A stretch of DNA of 32,971 nt from Campylobacterales bacterium (GTDB lineage: Bacteria > Campylobacterota > Campylobacteria > Campylobacterales > Sulfurimonadaceae), in the NCBI GenBank assembly GCA_024280035.1, contig JAJRQV010000097.1, positions 1 through 32,971 on the forward strand. Direction: 5' to 3'. The notes under the pieces are model-generated. The model saw nothing but the letters and a program-made list of their open reading frames with translations, did not search any database and had not been told where the DNA came from. The position numbers and the translations under genes are program-made. Below, piece by piece: positions 645-30,241 of this stretch. Numbering within the stretch: position 1 is the stretch's first letter; every line of letters begins with the position of its first letter.

Positions 645-1328
645 TTATAAGTCTTCTATACTAAAGAAACTCACTTCTAACTCTTTTTTATTTTCTAAAA
701 CAGCAAAACTCATAAGACATTCTTCTTGAGTATAAAAGAGTCCATAAAAACTATTTTCACCTTTAAGATATAACTCTTTTTCAAATGCATCTAAATCTTG
801 AAAATTCACCTCTTTAGGTGAGAGACTAAGCCCTCTTCCCAAGGCTTTTAAATGGGCTTCTTTTAATGTCCAATAAGCAAAAAATAGTTTCTTTTTATTT
901 GAAGCCTTCTTAAATATTTTCTCTTCTTCTTCAGACAAAACCATTTTAAGAAGTTCAGGGCTATACTCAAGCTCATTTAACTCTTCAACATCAATGCCAC
1001 ATAAGGGGAAACTCGAACAGATGATGTAGGCTCGTTTCGTACTATGAGAGAGATTAAAATAAAAACTTATCTTATGTTTTAAGGAGAGTTCGGGTCTGCC
1101 ATAGGCATTAAGAGTAAATACCCACTCCTCTTGTTTAACCCAAGGAAAATAGTGTGTAAGTATCTGTCGCAGATAAATATGAGAAAAGATGTAATTTTCT
1201 CTATCTTTATCTTTGAAAAAATTGTTTGCTTTTGTTTTTTCTTCTTGCGATAAACTTTCTAAAGAGCCGGCATCAAAAGATAAGTTTTCAAAAGGAATGT
1301 GCCAAATATCAAGCTTATACGACTTCAT
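645..1328 (-). CDS. Sfp-type 4'-phosphopantetheinyl transferase
   Basis: This 227-residue protein has the two signatures of Sfp/HetI/EntD-type transferases. One is G111-I-D113-V-E115, with the Mg2+-binding acidic residues. The other is W153-T-L-K156-E157-A-x-x-K161. These enzymes move the phosphopantetheine arm of CoA to the conserved serine of carrier proteins. An N-terminal half-domain contains NLSHS (92-96), the usual substrate-contact region. The ATG at 1326-1328 lies inside the 3' end of the NRPS gene (14-nt overlap), so the two are co-transcribed and probably translationally coupled. Together with the two carrier domains upstream, this makes it the dedicated activator of the FAAL-NRPS. 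Unlike its partner, the frame is intact, with no missing motif. Length is normal for the family. Confidence 0.93.
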   Translation of the reverse strand: MKSYKLDIWHIPFENLSFDAGSLESLSQEEKTKANNFFKDKDRENYIFSHIYLRQILTHYFPWVKQEEWVFTLNAYGRPELSLKHKISFYFNLSHSTKRAYIICSSFPLCGIDVEELNELEYSPELLKMVLSEEEEKIFKKASNKKKLFFAYWTLKEAHLKALGRGLSLSPKEVNFQDLDAFEKELYLKGENSFYGLFYTQEECLMSFAVLENKKELEVSFFSIEDL

Positions 1329-4300
1329 TCAAACTGCATTTATAATGTAAAAAGTCTTCTTTATCAAAAATGTCATGATTAAGACCATCATAATATGAAC
1401 ATATTTTCAAACTTAACTCTTCTACATTTTCAGCAGCTAAAATAGAGTAATGATCTCCATTTGACTCATAAAGCTTAATATTACTGTTTAAAAGTTCATT
1501 CCAATCATAATCATCAGCTACCCTTAGATCTCTTAACGAAGCACGTATAAGAGCTATATTGATTCTTTCTGGTACAGAACTTGGTGCATAATTTTGCATA
1601 CATAAAATATTATTTTTATATACTTTCACAAAAACTTCAAACTGTTCTGCGGTAAACTCTATTTCATTTTGGGCTAAAGACTGCACAATAAAAGCCAATT
1701 GCTCATCTTCCTCAACTTCAGATAAGACTTCTAAACTCAAGGTACTTTTAAACTTATACGTATCTATAATCAATTGATAAAGCTCATATATATATTTTGT
1801 CTTAGCCTGCTTATCAGTTCTGTCTATAATTGTTTTTAAAGACGAAGGGGCATGAGAATCAAGTAGAATAACTTTGGTCTCTTCATCTTTTAACTGTCTG
1901 CACATTTCATAAGCAATAACACCACCAATAGAATGACCAATTAAATGATAAGGACCTTCATTTTGAATCTTTTTCATCTCTTGTATATTTTGTGTAGCAA
2001 TCTCTTCGATGCTTTCAGGCAGTGGACTCACCCCATCTAAACCAATAGACTGAAGCCCATAAAAAGGCTGTTCCTTTCCAAATACTCGAGAAAGAGGCTC
2101 AAACATAGCCACATTTCCTCCCGCTCCGGGAATAGCAAAAAGAGGTAGTCTGTCCCCCTTGGTTTGAATAGCAACAGTAATTTCAAAGTTATGCCCATTT
2201 TCATTTGTAAGCATTATTGCTAACTCTTCAATCGTAGAAAATTTAAATAAAGCCGCAACAGTCAAAGCCGTATCAAACTTTTTATTAATCTTAGAGACTA
2301 AACTTACAGCTAATAAAGAGTGACCACCTAAGTCAAAAAAGTTATCATGTACACCTACTTTTTCAATACTAAGCAGTTCAGAAAACAGTGTTGCCAACTT
2401 CTCTTCAACTTGGTTTCTTGGAGCAAGATAAGCTTGATTTGACTCTATTACCTGTTCAAGTTTTTCTAAAACTTTTTTATCTACCTTACCGTTTGAGGTT
2501 AATGGCATTGTTTCTACTTTAATAAAAGCGACAGGAATCATATATTCAGGAAGGTCTTGAGATAAAACTTGTTTAATATTTTTTTGATTTAATTCTTGAT
2601 TATCTATCATGATAAGGTAAGCCACTAAACTTTTATCACCCTCTGCATTTTCTTTGACTAAAACAGTGCTTTCTTTAATAGTATTAATCTTAAGTAGATT
2701 CTGTTCTATCTCACCTAACTCAATTCTAAAACCTCTTATCTTAACTTGTTCATCAATACGACCTAAGTATTCTAAGTTACCCGCATCTGTGTATCGGACT
2801 AAGTCTCCCGTTTTATACATTTTTGTATCGGCTTTAAAAGGATTACCAACAAACTTCTCTTGTGTTAATTCTTTTTGATTTAAATACCCTCGAGCTAAAC
2901 CTTCTCCTGAAACATGTAACTCACCAGGAAGACCCATAGGCACAAGATTTTCATTTGCATCTAAGACATAAGCACTAAGGTCATCTAAGACACTTCCAAT
3001 AAGACTCTTCTCTTGTCTAATATCTTCTTTTTTGAATACATTATAGGTCACATGCACCGTTGTTTCAGTAATACCATACATATTAATTAACTCAGGGCTT
3101 GTATTACTGTACTTCTCATACCAAGGTTTTAAAAGTTTAAAATTAAGTTTTTCTCCTCCAAAAATAACCTTTCTTAAACTCTGTAACTTCTCAGTTTTTT
3201 GTCTGTCTATATATATCAGTTGCTGAAATGCAGATGGTGTCTGATTTAAAATAGTTACACCCTCTTTGTGAAGTAAGCTAAAAAAATCTTCTGTAGAACG
3301 TGTCACATCGGAAGGAACAATAATCAATTTTCCTCCATGCAATAAAGCACCCCAAATTTCCCATACAGCAAAATCAAAAGCAAAAGAGTGAAAAAGAGTC
3401 CGAACATCTTTTTCATTAAAAGCAAAGTTCTTTTCACTTGATTTAAACAATCTTTCTACATTTTTATGCTCAACCATCACACCCTTAGGTTTACCTGTTG
3501 AACCAGAGGTATAAATAACATAAGCTAAATTATCGACTTGAGATTGTGTACTGATATCTCTCTTCTGATACGAGTCTAGATTAACTAAATCAATAAGAAC
3601 TTCTTGCGCTTTTGTATTTGGCATTTTCTTTTGTAATGTACTATCTGTAATAAATAGACGCGCTTGTGAGTCATTAAGTATATACGCAACTCTATCACTT
3701 GGATAAGACGCATCAATGGGAACATAGGCTCCACCTGATTTAAGTACAGCCAATAAAGCGACTATCATATCTAATGAACGCTCTAAACATATCGCCACTA
3801 AAGAGTCTGACTTGACCCCTAAATCAACAAGATGATAGGCTAATTGATTGGCTTTTTCATTTAACTCTTTATAAGTTAAGGACTTATCCCCACACACAAT
3901 AGCTGTATGGTTCTGTCTACTTTTAGCCTTCTGTTCAAAAAGCTGGTGTACTGTTTTTTCTTGAGTATATTGAACCTGAGTCTGATTGAGTTTTTCTAAC
4001 TGAAGTTCTCTCTCTTGCTGATTTAAAAAGTCAATATCGACTATTTTCACTCTTGAACTTTCTAATAAACTTTGAACCACTAAACTGAATTTTTCTCGTA
4101 TATCTATCCCATTAAAAATATTTTCTGGATAGATAAATCTAATCGTATAAGGATTACCATTAACAATATTTAATTGAAACTCATTACTAGGAATAGTATC
4201 CATAGATTCACCATGCATCTTACTTAGCCTTGGCATAAAGTTTGTACTAAAGGCAATCTTAGAATTTTTTATAAGTTTTGACTGAGCTTGCATGCTTATA

Positions 4301-4509
4301 AGGTCGGTTTTATTCTCTTGAAAATCTTGAATTTTTTGTGCTAAATCAACAAGACTAAAGTTTTGTCTAAACCACTCTTTTTTAATAACAATAGGGCGTA
4401 CGTCTGCATACACACCAAAACTAAATTCTTTTAAAGACTTACGCCCAGAAAGGGTTTCATACAAAATAAAATCATCTGTAATATTAAAGAGTCTATATAA
4501 AACACTCAC
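1315..4509 (-). CDS. NRPS C-terminal fragment: end of second C domain, A domain (Thr-type pocket), PCP, thioesterase
   Basis: This is the third piece of a split megasynthase. Residues 1-~165 are the C-terminal half of a condensation domain whose N-half lies in the preceding frame. The adenylation domain spans ~190-680: A3 YTSGSTGKPKG (333-343), A5 YGITETT, A7 YKTGDL, A10 lysine K675 in NGKVDKK. By alignment to GrsA the pocket residues are D379, F380, W383, N422, I449, G451, M477, V485, H486 plus K675, the pattern classically assigned to threonine. A PCP follows (LGGHS, Ser731). The type I thioesterase has GHSIGG (Ser860), Asp885 and GDH His1020, so release by hydrolysis or cyclisation should be possible. 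The GTG start at 4507-4509 is only the first start codon after a frameshift; the coding frame continues upstream to about 4590. The gene stops inside the PPTase start. Confidence 0.9.
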   Translation of the reverse strand: MSVLYRLFNITDDFILYETLSGRKSLKEFSFGVYADVRPIVIKKEWFRQNFSLVDLAQKIQDFQENKTDLISMQAQSKLIKNSKIAFSTNFMPRLSKMHGESMDTIPSNEFQLNIVNGNPYTIRFIYPENIFNGIDIREKFSLVVQSLLESSRVKIVDIDFLNQQERELQLEKLNQTQVQYTQEKTVHQLFEQKAKSRQNHTAIVCGDKSLTYKELNEKANQLAYHLVDLGVKSDSLVAICLERSLDMIVALLAVLKSGGAYVPIDASYPSDRVAYILNDSQARLFITDSTLQKKMPNTKAQEVLIDLVNLDSYQKRDISTQSQVDNLAYVIYTSGSTGKPKGVMVEHKNVERLFKSSEKNFAFNEKDVRTLFHSFAFDFAVWEIWGALLHGGKLIIVPSDVTRSTEDFFSLLHKEGVTILNQTPSAFQQLIYIDRQKTEKLQSLRKVIFGGEKLNFKLLKPWYEKYSNTSPELINMYGITETTVHVTYNVFKKEDIRQEKSLIGSVLDDLSAYVLDANENLVPMGLPGELHVSGEGLARGYLNQKELTQEKFVGNPFKADTKMYKTGDLVRYTDAGNLEYLGRIDEQVKIRGFRIELGEIEQNLLKINTIKESTVLVKENAEGDKSLVAYLIMIDNQELNQKNIKQVLSQDLPEYMIPVAFIKVETMPLTSNGKVDKKVLEKLEQVIESNQAYLAPRNQVEEKLATLFSELLSIEKVGVHDNFFDLGGHSLLAVSLVSKINKKFDTALTVAALFKFSTIEELAIMLTNENGHNFEITVAIQTKGDRLPLFAIPGAGGNVAMFEPLSRVFGKEQPFYGLQSIGLDGVSPLPESIEEIATQNIQEMKKIQNEGPYHLIGHSIGGVIAYEMCRQLKDEETKVILLDSHAPSSLKTIIDRTDKQAKTKYIYELYQLIIDTYKFKSTLSLEVLSEVEEDEQLAFIVQSLAQNEIEFTAEQFEVFVKVYKNNILCMQNYAPSSVPERINIALIRASLRDLRVADDYDWNELLNSNIKLYESNGDHYSILAAENVEELSLKICSYYDGLNHDIFDKEDFLHYKCSLNEVV

Positions 4510-4589
4510 ATATACAGCATTAATAAGAGAAAGTAAGGAGATGTCATTATCCCTTTTAATCTTATTTAATGTAGTTATTGTTGCCTTAT

Positions 4590-7133
4590 CTAAAAAAGAT
4601 CTTCAAGTTTTTGTTGACCTAAGTTTAATGTGTTAAAAACAGGAATATCATTCACTCCACTTAGGGTCTCTCTCCACAATTCACTCTGCTGTTTGTGCTT
4701 GTACTTTTTAATAAGTGCAGATATTTCTTGAGTAGATGTTTTGACATCTATCTTAATAAACGCTTTTTCCTTCATATAGTTTTTATAAGCCTTATCTACT
4801 AAGGCTCTAAAATATACCATTGAAACACCATCTAAAATCACATGATGTGCCATATAACTTATATGTGTTAATTTAGAATTTTTATAAACAAAAATTGCCT
4901 TAATAAGAGCTTCTTTTTCAAAACTAATAGAGGCATCTGAAGCACTAAAAACTGCAGATCGAGCATCCTCATCTTCTTTACATTCTACCCTTACCATTAA
5001 ACCTTCATTATTATCATTAACATAAAGTTGGTATAACTGTCCAGCATACTCTGATACACGTAAATTCAGTGTCTCTATCTGGCTAACTACATAAAACACA
5101 GCTTTCTCAAAAACATCCAACTGAAGATCTTCTTCTACCTCATAAATAAGACCCATAAAGTACCTATTTTGAAAATGCATTTGACCTTGTAGATAAAGAT
5201 CAATTTGCATCTGTGTTAAAGGATAAACACGCTTGACTTGCTTTTGTGTATAGGGGCTATGTGTAATAACATCTTGATTAAAAATAGGTGCTAAAATTGG
5301 TAAATTATCAGCATTATTACAAAATTCTTCAATGAGTTGAGAATAATGAGATAAGAACTTCTGTATTTTCACATCAGATAAAAGAGAACTTTTATAAGTT
5401 AGTGAAAACTCAATACTATTTTCTTTAACATTAAGAGTTAGGTTTATTAATGTTTTTGCACTGTCTACACCAACATCATAAGCTTCATAACGTAAGTCAG
5501 TAAGCCCATCTTTTGAAAAACTGTTTTCTTCAAGACTGTTAAAGGCAAATTGAATATCTTCAACATCTAAGGCACTCTCTTTTAAACGAAGTCGCTCTAC
5601 AATATTTTGTAAAGGTGCATCTTGATGTTCTAATGCAGATAAAAGCTTTGACCTTGTCTGATTCGTTATATCTGCATAAGAACTTGAATCCTCAAGATCT
5701 AGTCTAATTAACATTGTATTAATAAAAAAGCCAAGAATATCTTGTGTCTCTTTAAGTGGTCTATTCGCATTAGGTACGGCTATAATGATAGAATCTTGCT
5801 GAGTATATCTATAAATCAAGGCAGCATAAAGGGCTAGTAATATCTGATTAACTGTCCAAGAATTTTTTATTCTTATATGATTTATTTTATCTAACTGTTC
5901 TTGATTAATAGAACTGAAAATTGTTTTTACATCTGTTGTAGGTTCTATTACATTTTTCTCTTTTAAAAGAGAAAGGTTTAACTGACGAGGAAAAGGGCTT
6001 AACTCATTTTCCCAATATTTTAGATGTTTTTCAAGTTTTCCCTCTTCTTCTAAACATTCTCTCTGCCAAAATGTATAATCAATATATTGAAACTTTAAGT
6101 CAGGAAGCTTAACTTCTTTTCCTGAACTAAGAGCATTCATAAATAGAGAAAACTCTTTAATAAGAACTGACATAGAGTGACCATCACTAATAATATGATG
6201 GGTATTTATTAATAAAACATGTTCATCATCTTTTAAAATAATCACAGTAACACGAATTAAGGGACCTTGGCTTAAATCAAAGGGTGTTCTTACCTCATCT
6301 TGACATAAGTCTTTGAGTTTAGACTCAATAGCGTTCTCCTGAGTACGAAGATCAAAAGTCTTGACTTTAAAATCAAGACTTTTTAGAACCTTCTGTTGTG
6401 CAGATGATTCAACACTTGGAAAAACTGTACGTAAGTTTTCATGACGTTCAATAATAAGATTAAAACTTTCTTCTACTTGACTAATATCTAAGTCACCAAA
6501 AATCCTAAGAGCTTCAAAAGCATTATAATCTGCACTTCCTGTTTCAAGCTGATCAATAAACCATAATCTCTCCTGAGCAAAAGAGAGGGGTGCTTTATCT
6601 CTTTTATTTTGAACAACACAACTTAATACGGTTTTTCTTTTCACAAGAGACAAACTGTTTAACTCCTGTTTGTCCAGACTTTTTTTAAGCGTATTCAGAA
6701 GATTTTCTACACTTTTTAGTTCAAATAATAGTTCTAAATTCATCTCTAAAAAATAGACTGTTTGAAGTTCAGCAAGAAGTTGGGTCATACGTAAAGAGTC
6801 TAAACCTAAGGCTAATAAATTTTGATTCACGTGTATGTTTTGAGCAGAAATATTACTCAATTGAGAAAGGCTTGCTTTAAGATGTAAGCTTAGATATTGT
6901 ATTTTCTTACTTTCAGGAAGTGTTTGATATTCTTGTAAAGAAAAATCTTCTATCAGTTCATCTGTACCAACACACTCTTCTTGATAACTTGCAAGTACCT
7001 TAAAACTTTGAGATTCATAAGCCTTTTTATTTGCCTGTCTTTGTATTTTTCCACTTGAAGTTTTAAGTAGTTGCCCCGGTCTTAAAAGAATAATATCTGA
7101 AACTTGCAACTCAAGTGCCGCTGAGACATTCAT
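4590..7133 (-). CDS. NRPS middle fragment: FAAL tail, acyl carrier domain, first C domain, N-half of second C domain
   Basis: Residues 1-~40 are the end of an acyl-AMP ligase (SSGKIQR, catalytic-type K29). A carrier domain follows with LGLDSLR (Ser113). A complete condensation domain spans ~178-610, with APLSFAQERLW at its start and HHIISDG (312-318). A second condensation domain begins at ~634 (VYPLTQMQ) with HHVILDG (763-769), and the frame then ends in TAG. There is no adenylation domain between the two C domains. The ATG at 7133 is an internal Met: the frame is the same as the FAAL fragment upstream and is separated from it only by one TAA and 19 sense codons. At the 3' end GAT-CTT-TTT-TAG lies in a T6 run; one more T would read on as L-D-K-A-T into the next fragment. 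The fragment is therefore a piece of one gene of about 2,457 codons. Confidence 0.9.
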   Translation of the reverse strand: MNVSAALELQVSDIILLRPGQLLKTSSGKIQRQANKKAYESQSFKVLASYQEECVGTDELIEDFSLQEYQTLPESKKIQYLSLHLKASLSQLSNISAQNIHVNQNLLALGLDSLRMTQLLAELQTVYFLEMNLELLFELKSVENLLNTLKKSLDKQELNSLSLVKRKTVLSCVVQNKRDKAPLSFAQERLWFIDQLETGSADYNAFEALRIFGDLDISQVEESFNLIIERHENLRTVFPSVESSAQQKVLKSLDFKVKTFDLRTQENAIESKLKDLCQDEVRTPFDLSQGPLIRVTVIILKDDEHVLLINTHHIISDGHSMSVLIKEFSLFMNALSSGKEVKLPDLKFQYIDYTFWQRECLEEEGKLEKHLKYWENELSPFPRQLNLSLLKEKNVIEPTTDVKTIFSSINQEQLDKINHIRIKNSWTVNQILLALYAALIYRYTQQDSIIIAVPNANRPLKETQDILGFFINTMLIRLDLEDSSSYADITNQTRSKLLSALEHQDAPLQNIVERLRLKESALDVEDIQFAFNSLEENSFSKDGLTDLRYEAYDVGVDSAKTLINLTLNVKENSIEFSLTYKSSLLSDVKIQKFLSHYSQLIEEFCNNADNLPILAPIFNQDVITHSPYTQKQVKRVYPLTQMQIDLYLQGQMHFQNRYFMGLIYEVEEDLQLDVFEKAVFYVVSQIETLNLRVSEYAGQLYQLYVNDNNEGLMVRVECKEDEDARSAVFSASDASISFEKEALIKAIFVYKNSKLTHISYMAHHVILDGVSMVYFRALVDKAYKNYMKEKAFIKIDVKTSTQEISALIKKYKHKQQSELWRETLSGVNDIPVFNTLNLGQQKLEDLF
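4592..4597 (-). other. Frameshift at T6 run inside the second C domain
   Basis: Minus strand GAT-CTT-TTT-TAG-ATA ends the middle frame. Adding one T, or a -1 slip on TTT, gives TTA-GAT-AAG and an open frame of 26-27 codons (D-K-A-T-I-T-T-L-N-K...) that joins exactly to the downstream C-domain half starting at 4509. Confidence 0.85.
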
Positions 7134-7190
7134 TCTGATCTCAGAAAATATCTTTTGCGCATCTATTTGACGAACATATGTTCTTTTTAT

Positions 7191-7193
7191 TTA
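7191..7193 (-). other. In-frame TAA interrupting FAAL-NRPS
   Basis: On the minus strand the codons read CAA-TAA-ATA-AAA-AGA. Both sides are in the same frame and both sides are good FAAL sequence, so this is a nonsense codon in the gene and not a natural C-terminus. The family normally has glutamate here, so GAA to TAA is the simplest change. Confidence 0.85.
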
Positions 7194-8690
7194 TTGTACA
7201 ATAATAAGTTGTTCTTGATTATCAACGGTAACACTAAAAACAGCACAAGCATTCGCAGACAATGCCTCATTAGAGTCTGAAACAAGTTCTTCAATATCTT
7301 GAGGATAATAATTTCTTCCACGAATAATAATAAGGTCTTTAACCCGTCCACAGATAAAAAGTTGTTCCTCATAAAAAAAGCCCAAGTCACCCGTACGAAG
7401 AAAAGGTCCCTCTCGACTCTCTTTTACGTATGCATTAAAAGTCGTATCAGTTTTTTCTTTATCTCTCCAATATCCCAAGGCAACACTCTCTCCTCTTGCC
7501 CATATCTCTCCTACTGCACCCTTTTCAACCTCTGTATGGGTTTGTGTATCTACAATAAGTGTTTCATGACCTAGCCACGAGTATCCACTAGAAATCATCT
7601 CTTGAGATAGGTCTGAATTTTTTTCTATTTTAATAGAACCTTCTTGTAAGGCTTCTTGGTTTACATTTAAAATAACAGGTGCTTCTTCTGTCTTACCCCC
7701 AGCAATGATTAAGGTTGTTTCTGCCATCCCATAACAAGGATAATGGGAGTCAGCCTTAAAACCACAGACCTCAAATTTCTTTGAAAACTTACTTAGGGTA
7801 TTGGCATGAATAGGTTCTGCACCATTAAATGCAACCTTCCATGAACTTACATCTAAGGCTTGTAGCTCTTCATCTTTAATTGTATCGGTACACAAATCAT
7901 AGGCAAAATTGGGTCCCCCACTTACTGTTGCCTTGTACTTAGAAATTATTTCTAACCAACGTAATGGTTTTTGTAAAAAATATACTGGTGACATTAATGT
8001 TGTCGAGAAACCACCATATAAAGGAGAAAGGACTCCTCCAATAAGACCCATATCATGAAAGGTTGGTAACCATGAAACAAAAACAGTCTCATCACTATAA
8101 GAAAATGATTGATAAATAAACTCCATATTACTCATAATATTGCCATGCGTTACCATCACTCCCTTAGGTTCACCTGTAGAACCTGAGGTGTATTGTAAAA
8201 AGGCAATGTCATCAGATTTAAGTTTGACATTAATCGCTAAAGGTTCTTTCAAATTTTTAGCATCAGTTTCAAACCATGGTAATTTTGCAAGTTCTGCATC
8301 TTCATTAAAAAGTGGTTTAGCAATTAAAGCAGACTTTTCAACTGTTAAAATAATAGAAGCTTGGGCATCATTAATAATTTTTTCTAAACGTTTGATTTTT
8401 TGATTTTTTCGAGGAGGATAGGCAGGAACAGCGATAACACCCGCATATAAACAACCTAAAAAAGCAGTAATAAATTCAATCCCTGCAGGATACAGAAGTA
8501 AGGCTCTCTCACCTTTTTTACAAGTTTGTAAAAGTTCACTTGCTATAGCTTTTGCTGCATAATCTACCTCAGAAAAACTCATCTCTTGTGCAGGTGAGTC
8601 CCCATCTTCAATAAAGCGATAAAGAAGTTCATTCTTTTTTGTAATTGCATGGTGATGTAATACATCAACTAAGGTCGTGTGTTTGTTCAT
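7191..8690 (-). CDS. Fatty acyl-AMP ligase (FAAL) domain, N-terminal fragment of the FAAL-NRPS
   Basis: This 499-residue adenylate-forming domain resembles fatty acyl-AMP ligases, which activate a fatty acid as acyl-AMP and pass it to a carrier domain without making acyl-CoA. Visible motifs are the P-loop-like YTSGSTGEPKGVMVTH (167-182), WLPTFHDMGLIGG, YGMAETTL, LRTGDLGF and GRVKDLIIIRGRNYYPQDIE, the last two very characteristic of FAALs. The start ATG (8688-8690) is preceded by AGGGGAATAG, a plausible ribosome site. The frame ends at TAA 7191-7193 just before the sequence I-K-R-T-Y-V-R-Q-I-D, where FAALs normally continue with E-x-x-R. The rest of the domain, including the catalytic lysine, lies beyond the stop in the same frame. 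As it stands the fragment lacks that lysine and should be poorly active. Confidence 0.9.
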   Translation of the reverse strand: MNKHTTLVDVLHHHAITKKNELLYRFIEDGDSPAQEMSFSEVDYAAKAIASELLQTCKKGERALLLYPAGIEFITAFLGCLYAGVIAVPAYPPRKNQKIKRLEKIINDAQASIILTVEKSALIAKPLFNEDAELAKLPWFETDAKNLKEPLAINVKLKSDDIAFLQYTSGSTGEPKGVMVTHGNIMSNMEFIYQSFSYSDETVFVSWLPTFHDMGLIGGVLSPLYGGFSTTLMSPVYFLQKPLRWLEIISKYKATVSGGPNFAYDLCTDTIKDEELQALDVSSWKVAFNGAEPIHANTLSKFSKKFEVCGFKADSHYPCYGMAETTLIIAGGKTEEAPVILNVNQEALQEGSIKIEKNSDLSQEMISSGYSWLGHETLIVDTQTHTEVEKGAVGEIWARGESVALGYWRDKEKTDTTFNAYVKESREGPFLRTGDLGFFYEEQLFICGRVKDLIIIRGRNYYPQDIEELVSDSNEALSANACAVFSVTVDNQEQLIIVQ

Positions 8691-11834: not shown

Positions 11835-12431
11835 ATGGCAATTATTGTAGATAAGGTTCAAAAAAGAAGAGATATTGCACTTTCTTGTGTCAAACTCTTT
11901 GTTCAAGGAGGTATTGGACATCTCACTATCTCCGAAGTAGCAAAAAAAGCAGGCATTGGCAAGGGTACATTTTATGATTATTTTAAAAATAAAGAGGCCA
12001 TTGTATTTGAAATTTTAAATATATTACTTGAAGAACATAGCAAAGGTAAAGAGCTTAAAATATCTCAGGCATCGTCTACTCGAGAAAAGGTCAAAATGTT
12101 TTTTGATTTTTATTCTAATAATGAAGATAAAGAGCTTAGACAGATTTATAAAGAGTACATATCTATCTCTTTAAGTAACCCCAATAAAGAGATGGTTGAT
12201 TTTCAAAGTAAATGTTTTAATACTTATTCATCATGGCTGAAAAATATTATTCAAGATGGCATTGAAAATAAAGAGATTATTCCTGAAGCACTTAACCTTT
12301 CAAAAGGGCTTTACTACTTTGGAGATGGGCTTTTCTTTAATTTTTCTACCACCAATGTTATTGGCGATATTAAAAAAGAGATTCATTTTTATGTGGACTC
12401 TCTTTTTGATCTAATTGAGGTTAAAAAATGA
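11835..12431 (+). CDS. TetR family transcriptional regulator of efflux operon
   Basis: This 198-residue protein has a typical TetR N-terminus. Residues ~27-60 (GHLTISEVAKKAGIGKGTFYDYFKNKEAI) form the helix-turn-helix with the family-defining GTFYDYFKNKE recognition/positioning helices. The C-terminal ~130 residues would form the ligand pocket and dimer interface; the ligand is unknown. The ATG is preceded by AAGG at fair spacing. A perfect palindrome lies just upstream, and the stop codon overlaps the next ATG as ATGA. It is thus the first gene of a four-gene efflux operon and most likely its repressor, released by a pump substrate. Confidence 0.92.
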   Translation: MAIIVDKVQKRRDIALSCVKLFVQGGIGHLTISEVAKKAGIGKGTFYDYFKNKEAIVFEILNILLEEHSKGKELKISQASSTREKVKMFFDFYSNNEDKELRQIYKEYISISLSNPNKEMVDFQSKCFNTYSSWLKNIIQDGIENKEIIPEALNLSKGLYYFGDGLFFNFSTTNVIGDIKKEIHFYVDSLFDLIEVKK

Positions 12432-13651
12432 AATTTTTGCTTCTTCTTAGCCTTCCCCTCTTTCTTTATGCCAGCAGTTTAAAATCTTTATTAGAGTATG
12501 CCATTGATAACAATAATCTCGTGCTTTCTCGAAGCCTAAATCAGCAAGCAAAACAGGCAGAAGTAGACTCAAAACACAGTGCCTACTACCCTACCCTTGA
12601 TGTTGGAGCTAATTACCAAAGCCTAAATGGAAGAACACCTTTTTACCCAGGAGACATATATGGTGCGGGGGCAACCTTAGGTCTTGATATTTATGATGGA
12701 GGAAGAAAGTCTTCTCAATTATAACAGAAAAAAAATGAACTTAAGGCAAGTAGTTTTGACACCCAAGCAATAAAAACAAGTATCAGTCTACAAATTGTAC
12801 AAGACTTCTACAGCATAAAAAGTCTAGAAGCAACACTCTCCTCACGGTTGAATGCAAAAAAATCCCTTCAGGCACAACTTGAACGTATGAAAAAATTCTA
12901 TGATGCTAAACTTGCCACGATAGATGATGTTGATCGACTGCAATCTGCTTTTGATACTAATATTTATCAAATTGAATCAATTAAGTTTGACATTCTTGCT
13001 ACTAAACGTTCATTAGAATTAAAAATAGGAAAAAAAATACTTAATCTGGACGACTCAAAATTTAAACGGCCTTATGATGAAAGCTACGAATTGGTAGACA
13101 GTACAAAATCTTTAATGGCGCAAGAAGAGGCAATTATTAAAAGTTCAGAATCCATTGAAAATATTTATTACCCTAATATCCGCGTAGAAGAGAGCTATAC
13201 TATTTATAAATATGACCGAACAGATGCCTTCCATCCTGAAGGAGCAGAAAAACAGAATAAAATCTTAGTCAGTTTAAATATGAGACTTTTTGATGGGGGA
13301 ACAATTAAACAAGACAAACAAGCTATTTTACTCAATTCACAAGCCCTTAATCAAAAAGTTCTTTATAAAAAACAAGAACAAAAAATTCAATATGATCTGG
13401 CACTTTCACGTATTCAAACCAGTAAAATTAAAATTAAAAGTGCAAAAAGTGCTCTTGTTTCTGCTAAAAGTAGTTTTAAGACCATAGAAGAAAAATATAA
13501 TGCAGGTATTGTTGATAATATTGTTTATCTTGATGCCTTAAGTACTCAAACCTCAGCAGAAGCACTTTACAAAAGTTCACTTAATGACTTAGAAATTGCT
13601 TATGCTATGTATTATTACTACGCTGGAAAAAATATAGGAGATTATTTATGA
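12428..13651 (+). pseudogene. TolC-family outer-membrane efflux protein, interrupted by in-frame TAA
   Basis: The ATG at 12428 starts a signal peptide (MKFLLLLSLPLFLYASS) and a TolC/OEP-type protein: SLKSLLEYAIDNN, YYPTLDVGANY, GLDIYDGGRKSSQL. A TAA at 12722-12724 then interrupts it after 98 codons. The same frame continues without further stops as QKKNELKASSFDTQ... and the OEP pattern repeats in the second half (NMRLFDGGTIKQDKQA; YNAGIVDNIVYLDALSTQ). Ignoring the stop, the product would be 407 residues, normal for the family. It would form the outer-membrane trimer and periplasmic coiled-coil channel of the pump. Overlaps are ATGA with tetR upstream and ATGA with the adaptor gene downstream. 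The stop could be a nonsense mutation (GAA to TAA is simplest), a sequence error or, less likely, a readthrough site. Confidence 0.85.
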
Positions 13652-28184: not shown

Positions 28185-30241
28185 TTATGCTGAAATAACC
28201 TCAACTTCTACTGACTTAAATGCTGCCGTTAAAATCAGGTCATCTTTTCTATCTCCAAAAATGTAGTTTATCTTTGAGTTGTTGTGATGAAAGGTAGTAA
28301 ACAGGGTCCCGGGTTTTACCCCTTGTGTAAATTTTACTTTTAAAGAGGCGGTTTTTCCATGTTCTGTTTTAAGAATTACCCTTCCTTTTGGAAACTTATC
28401 TTCATCTTCAATACTGACTAATAAGATATCTTCTTCATGTTTAGACAGAAGTTTTGGACTCTGTTTAGTTTGTGCTCATTATTATAATGCGGTAAGGCAC
28501 GTCCAGTTGTAAGGTGATAATGTGAAACTTTTTTATTTGTTTTTAACTCAAAAATCTGCCCACGTTCTGCATATTGATGGTAATGGAAGTGCCCAAGCCC
28601 ATCATCTGTTCTAAAATCAAGAAGGTGAAGAACAGGCGTGTCTTCAATATATACTGGCCACTGAAGCCCACGTTTTCTATGACGTTCAAGTCTTTGGTAC
28701 GAAGCGCCAGAAAAACGTCTGTGTGCAACTTCTCTGACCTCATCCCATACCTCCGAAGAGTCTTTGTAATTATACGTTCCTCCCAGTTTATTTTCAATCA
28801 TCTGAATAACTTCCCAATCATCAGGTAAGTCTGTTTGAACAAGCGGTTGAGAAAGGTGAAGTCTACGCATAGCATTTACATAAACTCCAGTTTTTTCATA
28901 AGCTGACTTAACACCAATAACAATATCTGCCTTAGATGCGATATCATTCATAATCACTTCTTGAACTAAAATAAACTCAAGTTCTGCAATCCCCTTATGC
29001 ACCTTATTAAGATTTGGATGGATGTGCGTAATATCTTCACCCATATTATGAAGTGATTTAACCTTTCCTTTAATCATCTCATCAATGAGTTGAGGCGTCA
29101 TTAAACCTACTTCTTTTGGTTCTTGGTAATCGGGATCATAATAAGGAAGTACTCCCATATCACAAGCCCCTTGAACATTATTTTGCCCACGTAAAGGCAT
29201 AAGCCCAGCACCTTGTTTACCAACATTTCCTGTTAAGAATGAAAGGTGAGTAATTGCCATAACCGCTTTTGAACCATCTAAATGTTCTGTAATGCCAAGA
29301 CCCCAAAAAATCATCGATTTTTTAAGTGCATATTCTCTAGCAATTTTAGGAATCATCTTCGCTAGGTCTTCATAACCGGGAAGTGTCTCCATAAACTTAG
29401 GATTAGCATAAGGGTCATTTAGAATTTTGTCTTTGTAATTTTCAAAAAACTTGGTACGGGTGTTAATAAAGTCTTCATTATAAAGTTCTTCATTCAAGAT
29501 AACATACGCCATCATATTTAAAACCAGTAAGTTCGCCTCATGAGGAATTACTGCTTGGTATTTTGCAAACTTACCCAATTTAATGCGACGTACATCAATG
29601 ACTGCAAGGTTATCATGCGTTTGGGCTACATCAATAATACGGTTGGCAACAATAGGGTGTGCCTCAGTTGTATTAGAACCCATAACAATAATAAATTCAG
29701 TATGATAAATATCATCATAAGGATTTGTTGCTGCACCCTCACCCATTGTTGTACGCATCCCCTTAAGAGAAGGAGAGTGACATACACGAGCACAATTATC
29801 TACATGTGGAGAATTTAAGGTATGACGTGTGTACTTTTGAAACAAAAATGCAGACTCACAAGAAGTACGTGCTCCACCAATTGAACAGAGACTATGACGT
29901 CCATATTTCTCTTTTATTTCTAACATCTTTTTAGCAGAAATTGATGTTGCTGTTTCTAAATTAGTTTCATACCATATCTCATCAAAATCGAAAAACTCTT
30001 TTTCATATTCTGAACAAATTTGAGGGTTTTTATCTACAAAACTTTTTCGAATACGTGGTGTTCTAATACGGTTAGGACTCTGCACAAAATCAAAGCCTAA
30101 CTTCCCTTTAATACAGAGTTTACCCTGAGAAACCACACCATCTTTATTGGCAGAAATTTTGTGAATCTTATTATCTTCAACATGCCCAACAATATCACAC
30201 CCTACTCCACAATATGTACAAACGGTATCTATAAGTTCCAC
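28185..30241 (-). pseudogene. Formate dehydrogenase alpha subunit-like molybdopterin oxidoreductase, frameshifted near its C-terminus
   Basis: The N-terminus has no Tat signal and begins with the 4Fe-4S set C8-x2-C11-x3-C15-x27-C43. The Mo/W ligand is Cys154 in NCARVCHSPS, with GSNTTEAHP, DVRRI and GLMPLRGQNNVQGACDMG as in FdhF/FdhA enzymes that oxidise formate to CO2. The uninterrupted frame stops at 28418 after 607 residues in an atypical tail. The C-terminal domain continues in another frame after HYNN (break near 28477): A-Q-T-K-Q-S-P-K-L-L-S-K-H-E-E-D then GVKPGTLFTTFHH and SVEVEVISA to TAA 28185-28187. One base inserted there restores a ~685-residue protein of normal length. No electron-transfer or accessory fdh genes are adjacent, so partner and direction are open. 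Confidence 0.87.

Follow-up and report, generated by a model that had tools for sequence, protein, structure and literature searches.

A rare, small FAAL-NRPS locus with a predicted threonine code in a Campylobacterales genome, twice interrupted in its only sequence

We analysed a DNA stretch of 32,971 nucleotides (the window), which is the entire contig C103 of a draft Campylobacterales genome of 107 contigs and 2.51 Mb. Between positions 645 and 8690, on the minus strand, lies a nonribosomal peptide synthetase (NRPS) with the domain order FAAL-ACP-C1-C2-A-PCP-TE, whose end is overlapped by a PPTase gene. As assembled, the genes and domains are as follows:

8690-7191, minus strand: ORF 1, 499 aa; Pfam AMP-binding
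7133-4590, minus strand: ORF 2, 847 aa; Pfam PP-binding and Condensation
4509-1315, minus strand: ORF 3, 1064 aa; Pfam AMP-binding with its C-terminal domain, PP-binding and Thioesterase
6966-8690, minus strand: FAAL domain; the ORF reaches to 7191 and the C-terminal domain goes on in frame to about 6966
6690-6881, minus strand: ACP, the first carrier; Pfam PP-binding 6.5e-10; Ser in LALGLDSL
5310-6602, minus strand: C1, a Condensation domain; HHIISDG intact
4015-5234, minus strand: C2, a divergent condensation domain split by a frameshift; HHVILDG intact
2485-3939, minus strand: A domain; Pfam 2.3e-92; TIGR01733 458 bits, above the cut-off
2215-2403, minus strand: PCP, the second carrier; Pfam 2.7e-15; Ser in FDLGGHSL
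1414-2145, minus strand: TE; Pfam 1.1e-24; Ser in GHSIGG, with the triad Asp and His present in the alignment
1328-645, minus strand: Sfp/HetI-type PPTase gene, 227 aa; Pfam ACPS 2.2e-17; overlaps the NRPS end by 14 bases

The best-family Pfam E-values per ORF ranged from 2e-17 to 2e-97, which excludes chance matches. The FAAL domain was recognised by Pfam AMP-binding at 3.3e-66, and its top PDB matches were the solved FAALs 7r7g (1.5e-139) and 3kxw (4.8e-124). FAAL models were also among its best NCBIfam matches and outranked the CoA-ligase models, with scores below the full-length cut-offs. By both the PDB matches and the NCBIfam ranking, the domain is thus nearer to FAALs than to CoA ligases. 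In the module C-A-PCP-TE, the HHxxxDG motif, the core motifs and code of the A domain, the PCP serine and the TE triad were all present. The PPTase carries an ACPS domain on a protein of about 230 aa and is distinct from AcpS; its nearest NCBIfam models are HetI and AusB, both below cut-off, and the only other PPTase of the genome is a 115-aa AcpS-like protein. An earlier note, made from the sequence alone, had named these domains with their order, strand and coordinates, and the Pfam and profile searches confirmed all of them, as the comparisons above did for the FAAL and for a PPTase belonging to the cluster itself.

A profile search of the whole genome returned Condensation domains here alone, one at 5310-6602 and one at 4641-5234; further modules in other parts of the genome were therefore rejected. 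The cluster is flanked by convergent DUF3373 and Bcp genes, and the same pair flanks a related cluster in the congeneric genome G005. Since these genes bound the cluster in both genomes, loss of a module at the contig end is unlikely. Neither a dedicated exporter nor a tailoring gene is adjacent to the locus, and a promoter scan found sites no more numerous than in shuffled sequences.

Two features interrupt the synthetase, which stands in the assembly as three ORFs and not as a continuous one:

7191-7193, minus strand: in-frame TAA that cuts the C-terminal domain of the FAAL and lies upstream of TSSGKIQR, an A10-like lysine motif
4592-4597, minus strand: run of six T, with a change of reading frame inside C2

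ORFs 1 and 2 share one frame and ORF 3 lies in another. Homology to G005, G023 and G205 runs on across the TAA, and TSSGKIQR is in frame but past the stop, so that no single protein holds the FAAL together with its A10 lysine motif. Joined, the protein counts 2459 residues, in line with the approximately 2,457 given earlier; its continuity did not hold, and a single synthetase protein is unsupported as assembled. The breaks had gone unmentioned, although the word "joined" implies that they had been seen. Recoding of TAA was rejected because TAA ends more ORFs than any other stop codon (277 of 434). At the six-T run, we consider a programmed frameshift or phase variation unlikely: six T make a short run, and the gene has another interruption unrelated to it.

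Comparison of other genes of this genome (G000) with congener ORFs revealed breaks in 4 of 78 comparisons, covering 38.7 kb (fdhA and genes on L087, L092 and L112). The control counts were one break in 84 kb for G004 and three in 78.5 kb for G001, and three of these four control cases carry 3 to 7 stops and resemble spurious query ORFs. Because other conserved genes of the draft carry similar single lesions, we cannot tell decay from sequence error for either lesion in the synthetase. We would put at even odds that assembly or sequencing errors made both interruptions and that the organism itself has an intact synthetase. The elevated rate of single lesions, the position of one lesion at a homopolymer and the state of the draft, which is split into 107 contigs and has no SSU (16S) match, are consistent with this, but with four flagged genes in 39 kb the sample of lesions is small, and two lesions in one 7.4-kb gene are somewhat above what that rate predicts. 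A recent pseudogene is a serious possibility that we do not favour; here the stop and the frameshift would be real, in a strain that is losing a cluster absent from some congeners. The lesions elsewhere, at a per-base rate above that of G001 or G004, fit sequence errors instead, and apart from the lesions the domains, their motifs and the PPTase show conservation; on the other hand, the lesions are two and independent, and the site is empty in G002, G003 and G004 and holds only a PPTase in G001. As the assembled gene is interrupted twice, this strain may lack the product.

Two further genes of the window are broken. The formate dehydrogenase alpha gene (fdhA, 28188-30241, minus strand) has a frameshift near 28475; it is a single ORF in G004, with 87% identity on either side of the frameshift. 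A TolC-like outer-membrane efflux gene (12428-13651, plus strand), part of a TetR-OEP-HlyD-RND cassette, has an in-frame TAA near 12.72 kb.

The ten-residue code of the A domain, read with the GrsA positions as ruler, was computed as DFWNIGMVHK, the standard threonine code. The domain is 58% identical to an A domain of G001 and 56% identical to one of G013, and the codes of both are the same or nearly so. As predicted from this code, the amino acid is probably threonine; the earlier note had given none and had left the double interruption unweighed. Its proposal of a one-amino-acid product stands, with one A domain in the locus and no C domain elsewhere in the genome. Our main reading, to which we assign a probability of about 0.7, is that the locus specifies, or specified until recently, a lipo-amino-acid synthetase that uses a single amino acid, with N-acyl-threonine as the predicted product because the A domain bears a threonine code.

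From the domain order and motifs, which are read directly, we infer which substrates are used, how C1 and C2 share the work and in what form the product is released. Our model suggests that the PPTase would arm the ACP and the PCP, and that the FAAL, by its predicted activity, would turn a free fatty acid into acyl-AMP and load it onto the ACP. The A domain would put L-threonine on the PCP, C1 or C2 would condense the two into N-acyl-threonyl-PCP, and the TE would release N-acyl-threonine or a form that it cyclises or oligomerises. This would represent a small lipo-amino-acid pathway in a group known chiefly for chemolithotrophy and pathogens.

A product with a single amino acid would require only one C domain, and the presence of two counts against our main reading. 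The start FAAL-ACP-C-C-A recurs in G023, from another genus of the same family. The G023 cluster (L045) resembles that of the window in its FAAL-ACP-C1-C2-A start, its paired C1 and C2 and a nearby PPTase and TE-ended NRPS, but it is larger, with several modules and other A-domain codes. A tree built from 23 C domains, resolved only in its shallower forks, paired C1 with the C1 of G023 (99/95) and C2 with its C2 (100/100), and it placed the C domain of G005 with the C domain that comes last in G023 (100/99). Because each domain pairs with its G023 counterpart, the tree indicates that C1-C2 is inherited as a unit and is not a frameshift artefact. Such a phylogeny, and a search for the cluster in related genomes, had been proposed beforehand; the search yielded this tandem and, in G005, an orthologous head at the same site.

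It is conceivable, though we lean against it, that C1-C2 is a relic in which only one C domain works, the A-PCP between them having been lost from a FAAL-ACP-C-A-PCP-C-A-PCP-TE ancestor. A Nostoc plasmid carries FAAL-ACP-C-A-PCP-C followed by C-A-PCP-TE, although the third C-family domain there may be an epimerase, and the C1 of G023 has HHIVSDE and not HHxxxDG. However, HHxxxDG is intact in C1 and in C2 of the window, and two genera retain the tandem at 30-34% identity, a separation long enough to lose a useless domain. We consider it unlikely that FAAL-ACP-C1-C2 forms a separate kind of loading unit, inherited within the Campylobacterales, with C2 as a new condensation subtype that has its own reaction and is no relic; if it were, that reaction could be, for example, a second acylation or an acyl hand-over. 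A sequence search of the PDB found no solved relative of C2 at E<0.01. The G023 copy, modelled with AlphaFold at modest confidence (mean pLDDT 73), shows a complete C fold and resembles LCL domains, starter domains (the Rausch 2007 subtype, PMC1894796) and other C domains to much the same degree. Neither PDB sequence nor fold singled out a subtype. Double acylation of threonine (amide and ester) to N,O-diacyl-threonine, or coupling of units by the TE as in serrawettin W1, would suit an enzyme that has a hydroxy amino acid, a single acyl-loading unit and two C domains that both look active, but it is improbable, given that the first A domain of G023 sits behind the same tandem and has no Thr code.

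Condensation domains occurred in 8 of 399 genomes sampled across the order, in keeping with the earlier impression that NRPS loci are unusual in this group. FAAL relatives (E<=1e-60) were found in 5 of the 399 genomes of the order and in 6 of 228 of the family. One of the eight, G221, encodes C-A-PCP-C-A-PCP and then KS-DH-KR-ACP-TE, the domain layout of barnesin A, the lipodipeptide of an NRPS-PKS published in the phylum from Sulfurospirillum barnesii (PMC13096860). An NRPS in Campylobacterota therefore has precedent, and the label "poorly described" fits the locus but not the phylum. The barnesin A synthetase (BrnE/BrnF/BrnI) is likewise a lipopeptide NRPS from Campylobacterota whose cluster includes a PPTase of its own; it differs in that it begins with a starter C domain and no FAAL, and in that it uses two amino acids and a PKS (PMC13096860). 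In lipopeptide synthetases that begin with a FAAL, from cyanobacteria among others (that of puwainaphycin is one, PMC4219810), a FAAL and an ACP likewise feed a C domain, whereas the window has one A domain, two adjacent C domains and no further modules. Within the plasmid collection, cyanobacteria hold the nearest FAALs, at about 50% identity.

Searching GTDB contigs at the protein level returned a single distant match, in Streptococcus, and open-access papers held no description of the locus or of a FAAL-ACP-C-C start. Two outcomes had been named beforehand as telling against the locus: an ordinary, well-described cluster with outside modules, or an absence of FAAL signatures in a profile search. 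We encountered neither. The locus is a genuine, rare, small FAAL-NRPS, interrupted in its sole sequence, to which the present analysis newly adds the interruptions, the threonine code, the inherited C1-C2 pair and the variable site described below. Among other genomes, G468 (L078, 1-8403, plus strand) encodes a FAAL-ACP-C-A-PCP protein with a class-III aminotransferase and a shikimate-dehydrogenase-like domain, and the HHxxxD motif was not found in its C domain. G028, from another family of the order, has several NRPS genes on L046, L047 and L048, including Thr-code A domains.

Bcp and DUF3373 mark one site across the genus. DUF3373 and DUF2393, both neighbours of the locus, are typical of Campylobacterota and, with the barnesin-like cluster present in the order, underlie the assignment to this phylum. 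In G002, G003 and G004 the two genes are adjacent, with neither a PPTase nor an NRPS match between them. In G001 a PPTase stands alone at the site (40% identity), and in G005 (L044) the site holds a PPTase and an intact FAAL-ACP-C-A-MT-PCP-reductase in a single 2528-aa ORF. The G005 cluster shares with the window the orthologous FAAL head, the PPTase, the site and the flanks, but it has one C domain, from a branch other than that of the window's C domains, a methyltransferase in the A-domain region and reductive instead of thioesterase release, and it would be expected to yield an N-acyl aminoaldehyde or alcohol. The two FAALs are 61-63% identical, near to somewhat below the flanks (DUF523 69%, Bcp 71%, DUF3373 76%), whereas the ACP (37%), C1 (34%) and A domain (45%) are less alike and the tails are unlike in kind. 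The simplest reading of these identities would be an orthologous head with an exchanged tail. At this one site the genus shows absence, a lone PPTase, or two NRPS alike in their FAAL head but ending in a thioesterase or a reductase, and it would illustrate how lipopeptide synthetases exchange modules in nature.

On another contig, in a surface-polysaccharide-like region, G001 carries a half-C-A(Thr)-PCP-TE gene (L042, 8334-11666, minus strand). Its TE has a Cys (GYCMGS) in place of the window's nucleophile Ser, a replacement also seen in beta-lactone-forming TEs. A TetR gene adjoins an aldehyde dehydrogenase gene in G001, as in the window, and the neighbour of the globin gene is the aldehyde dehydrogenase in G002 and G003 and DUF523 in G004.
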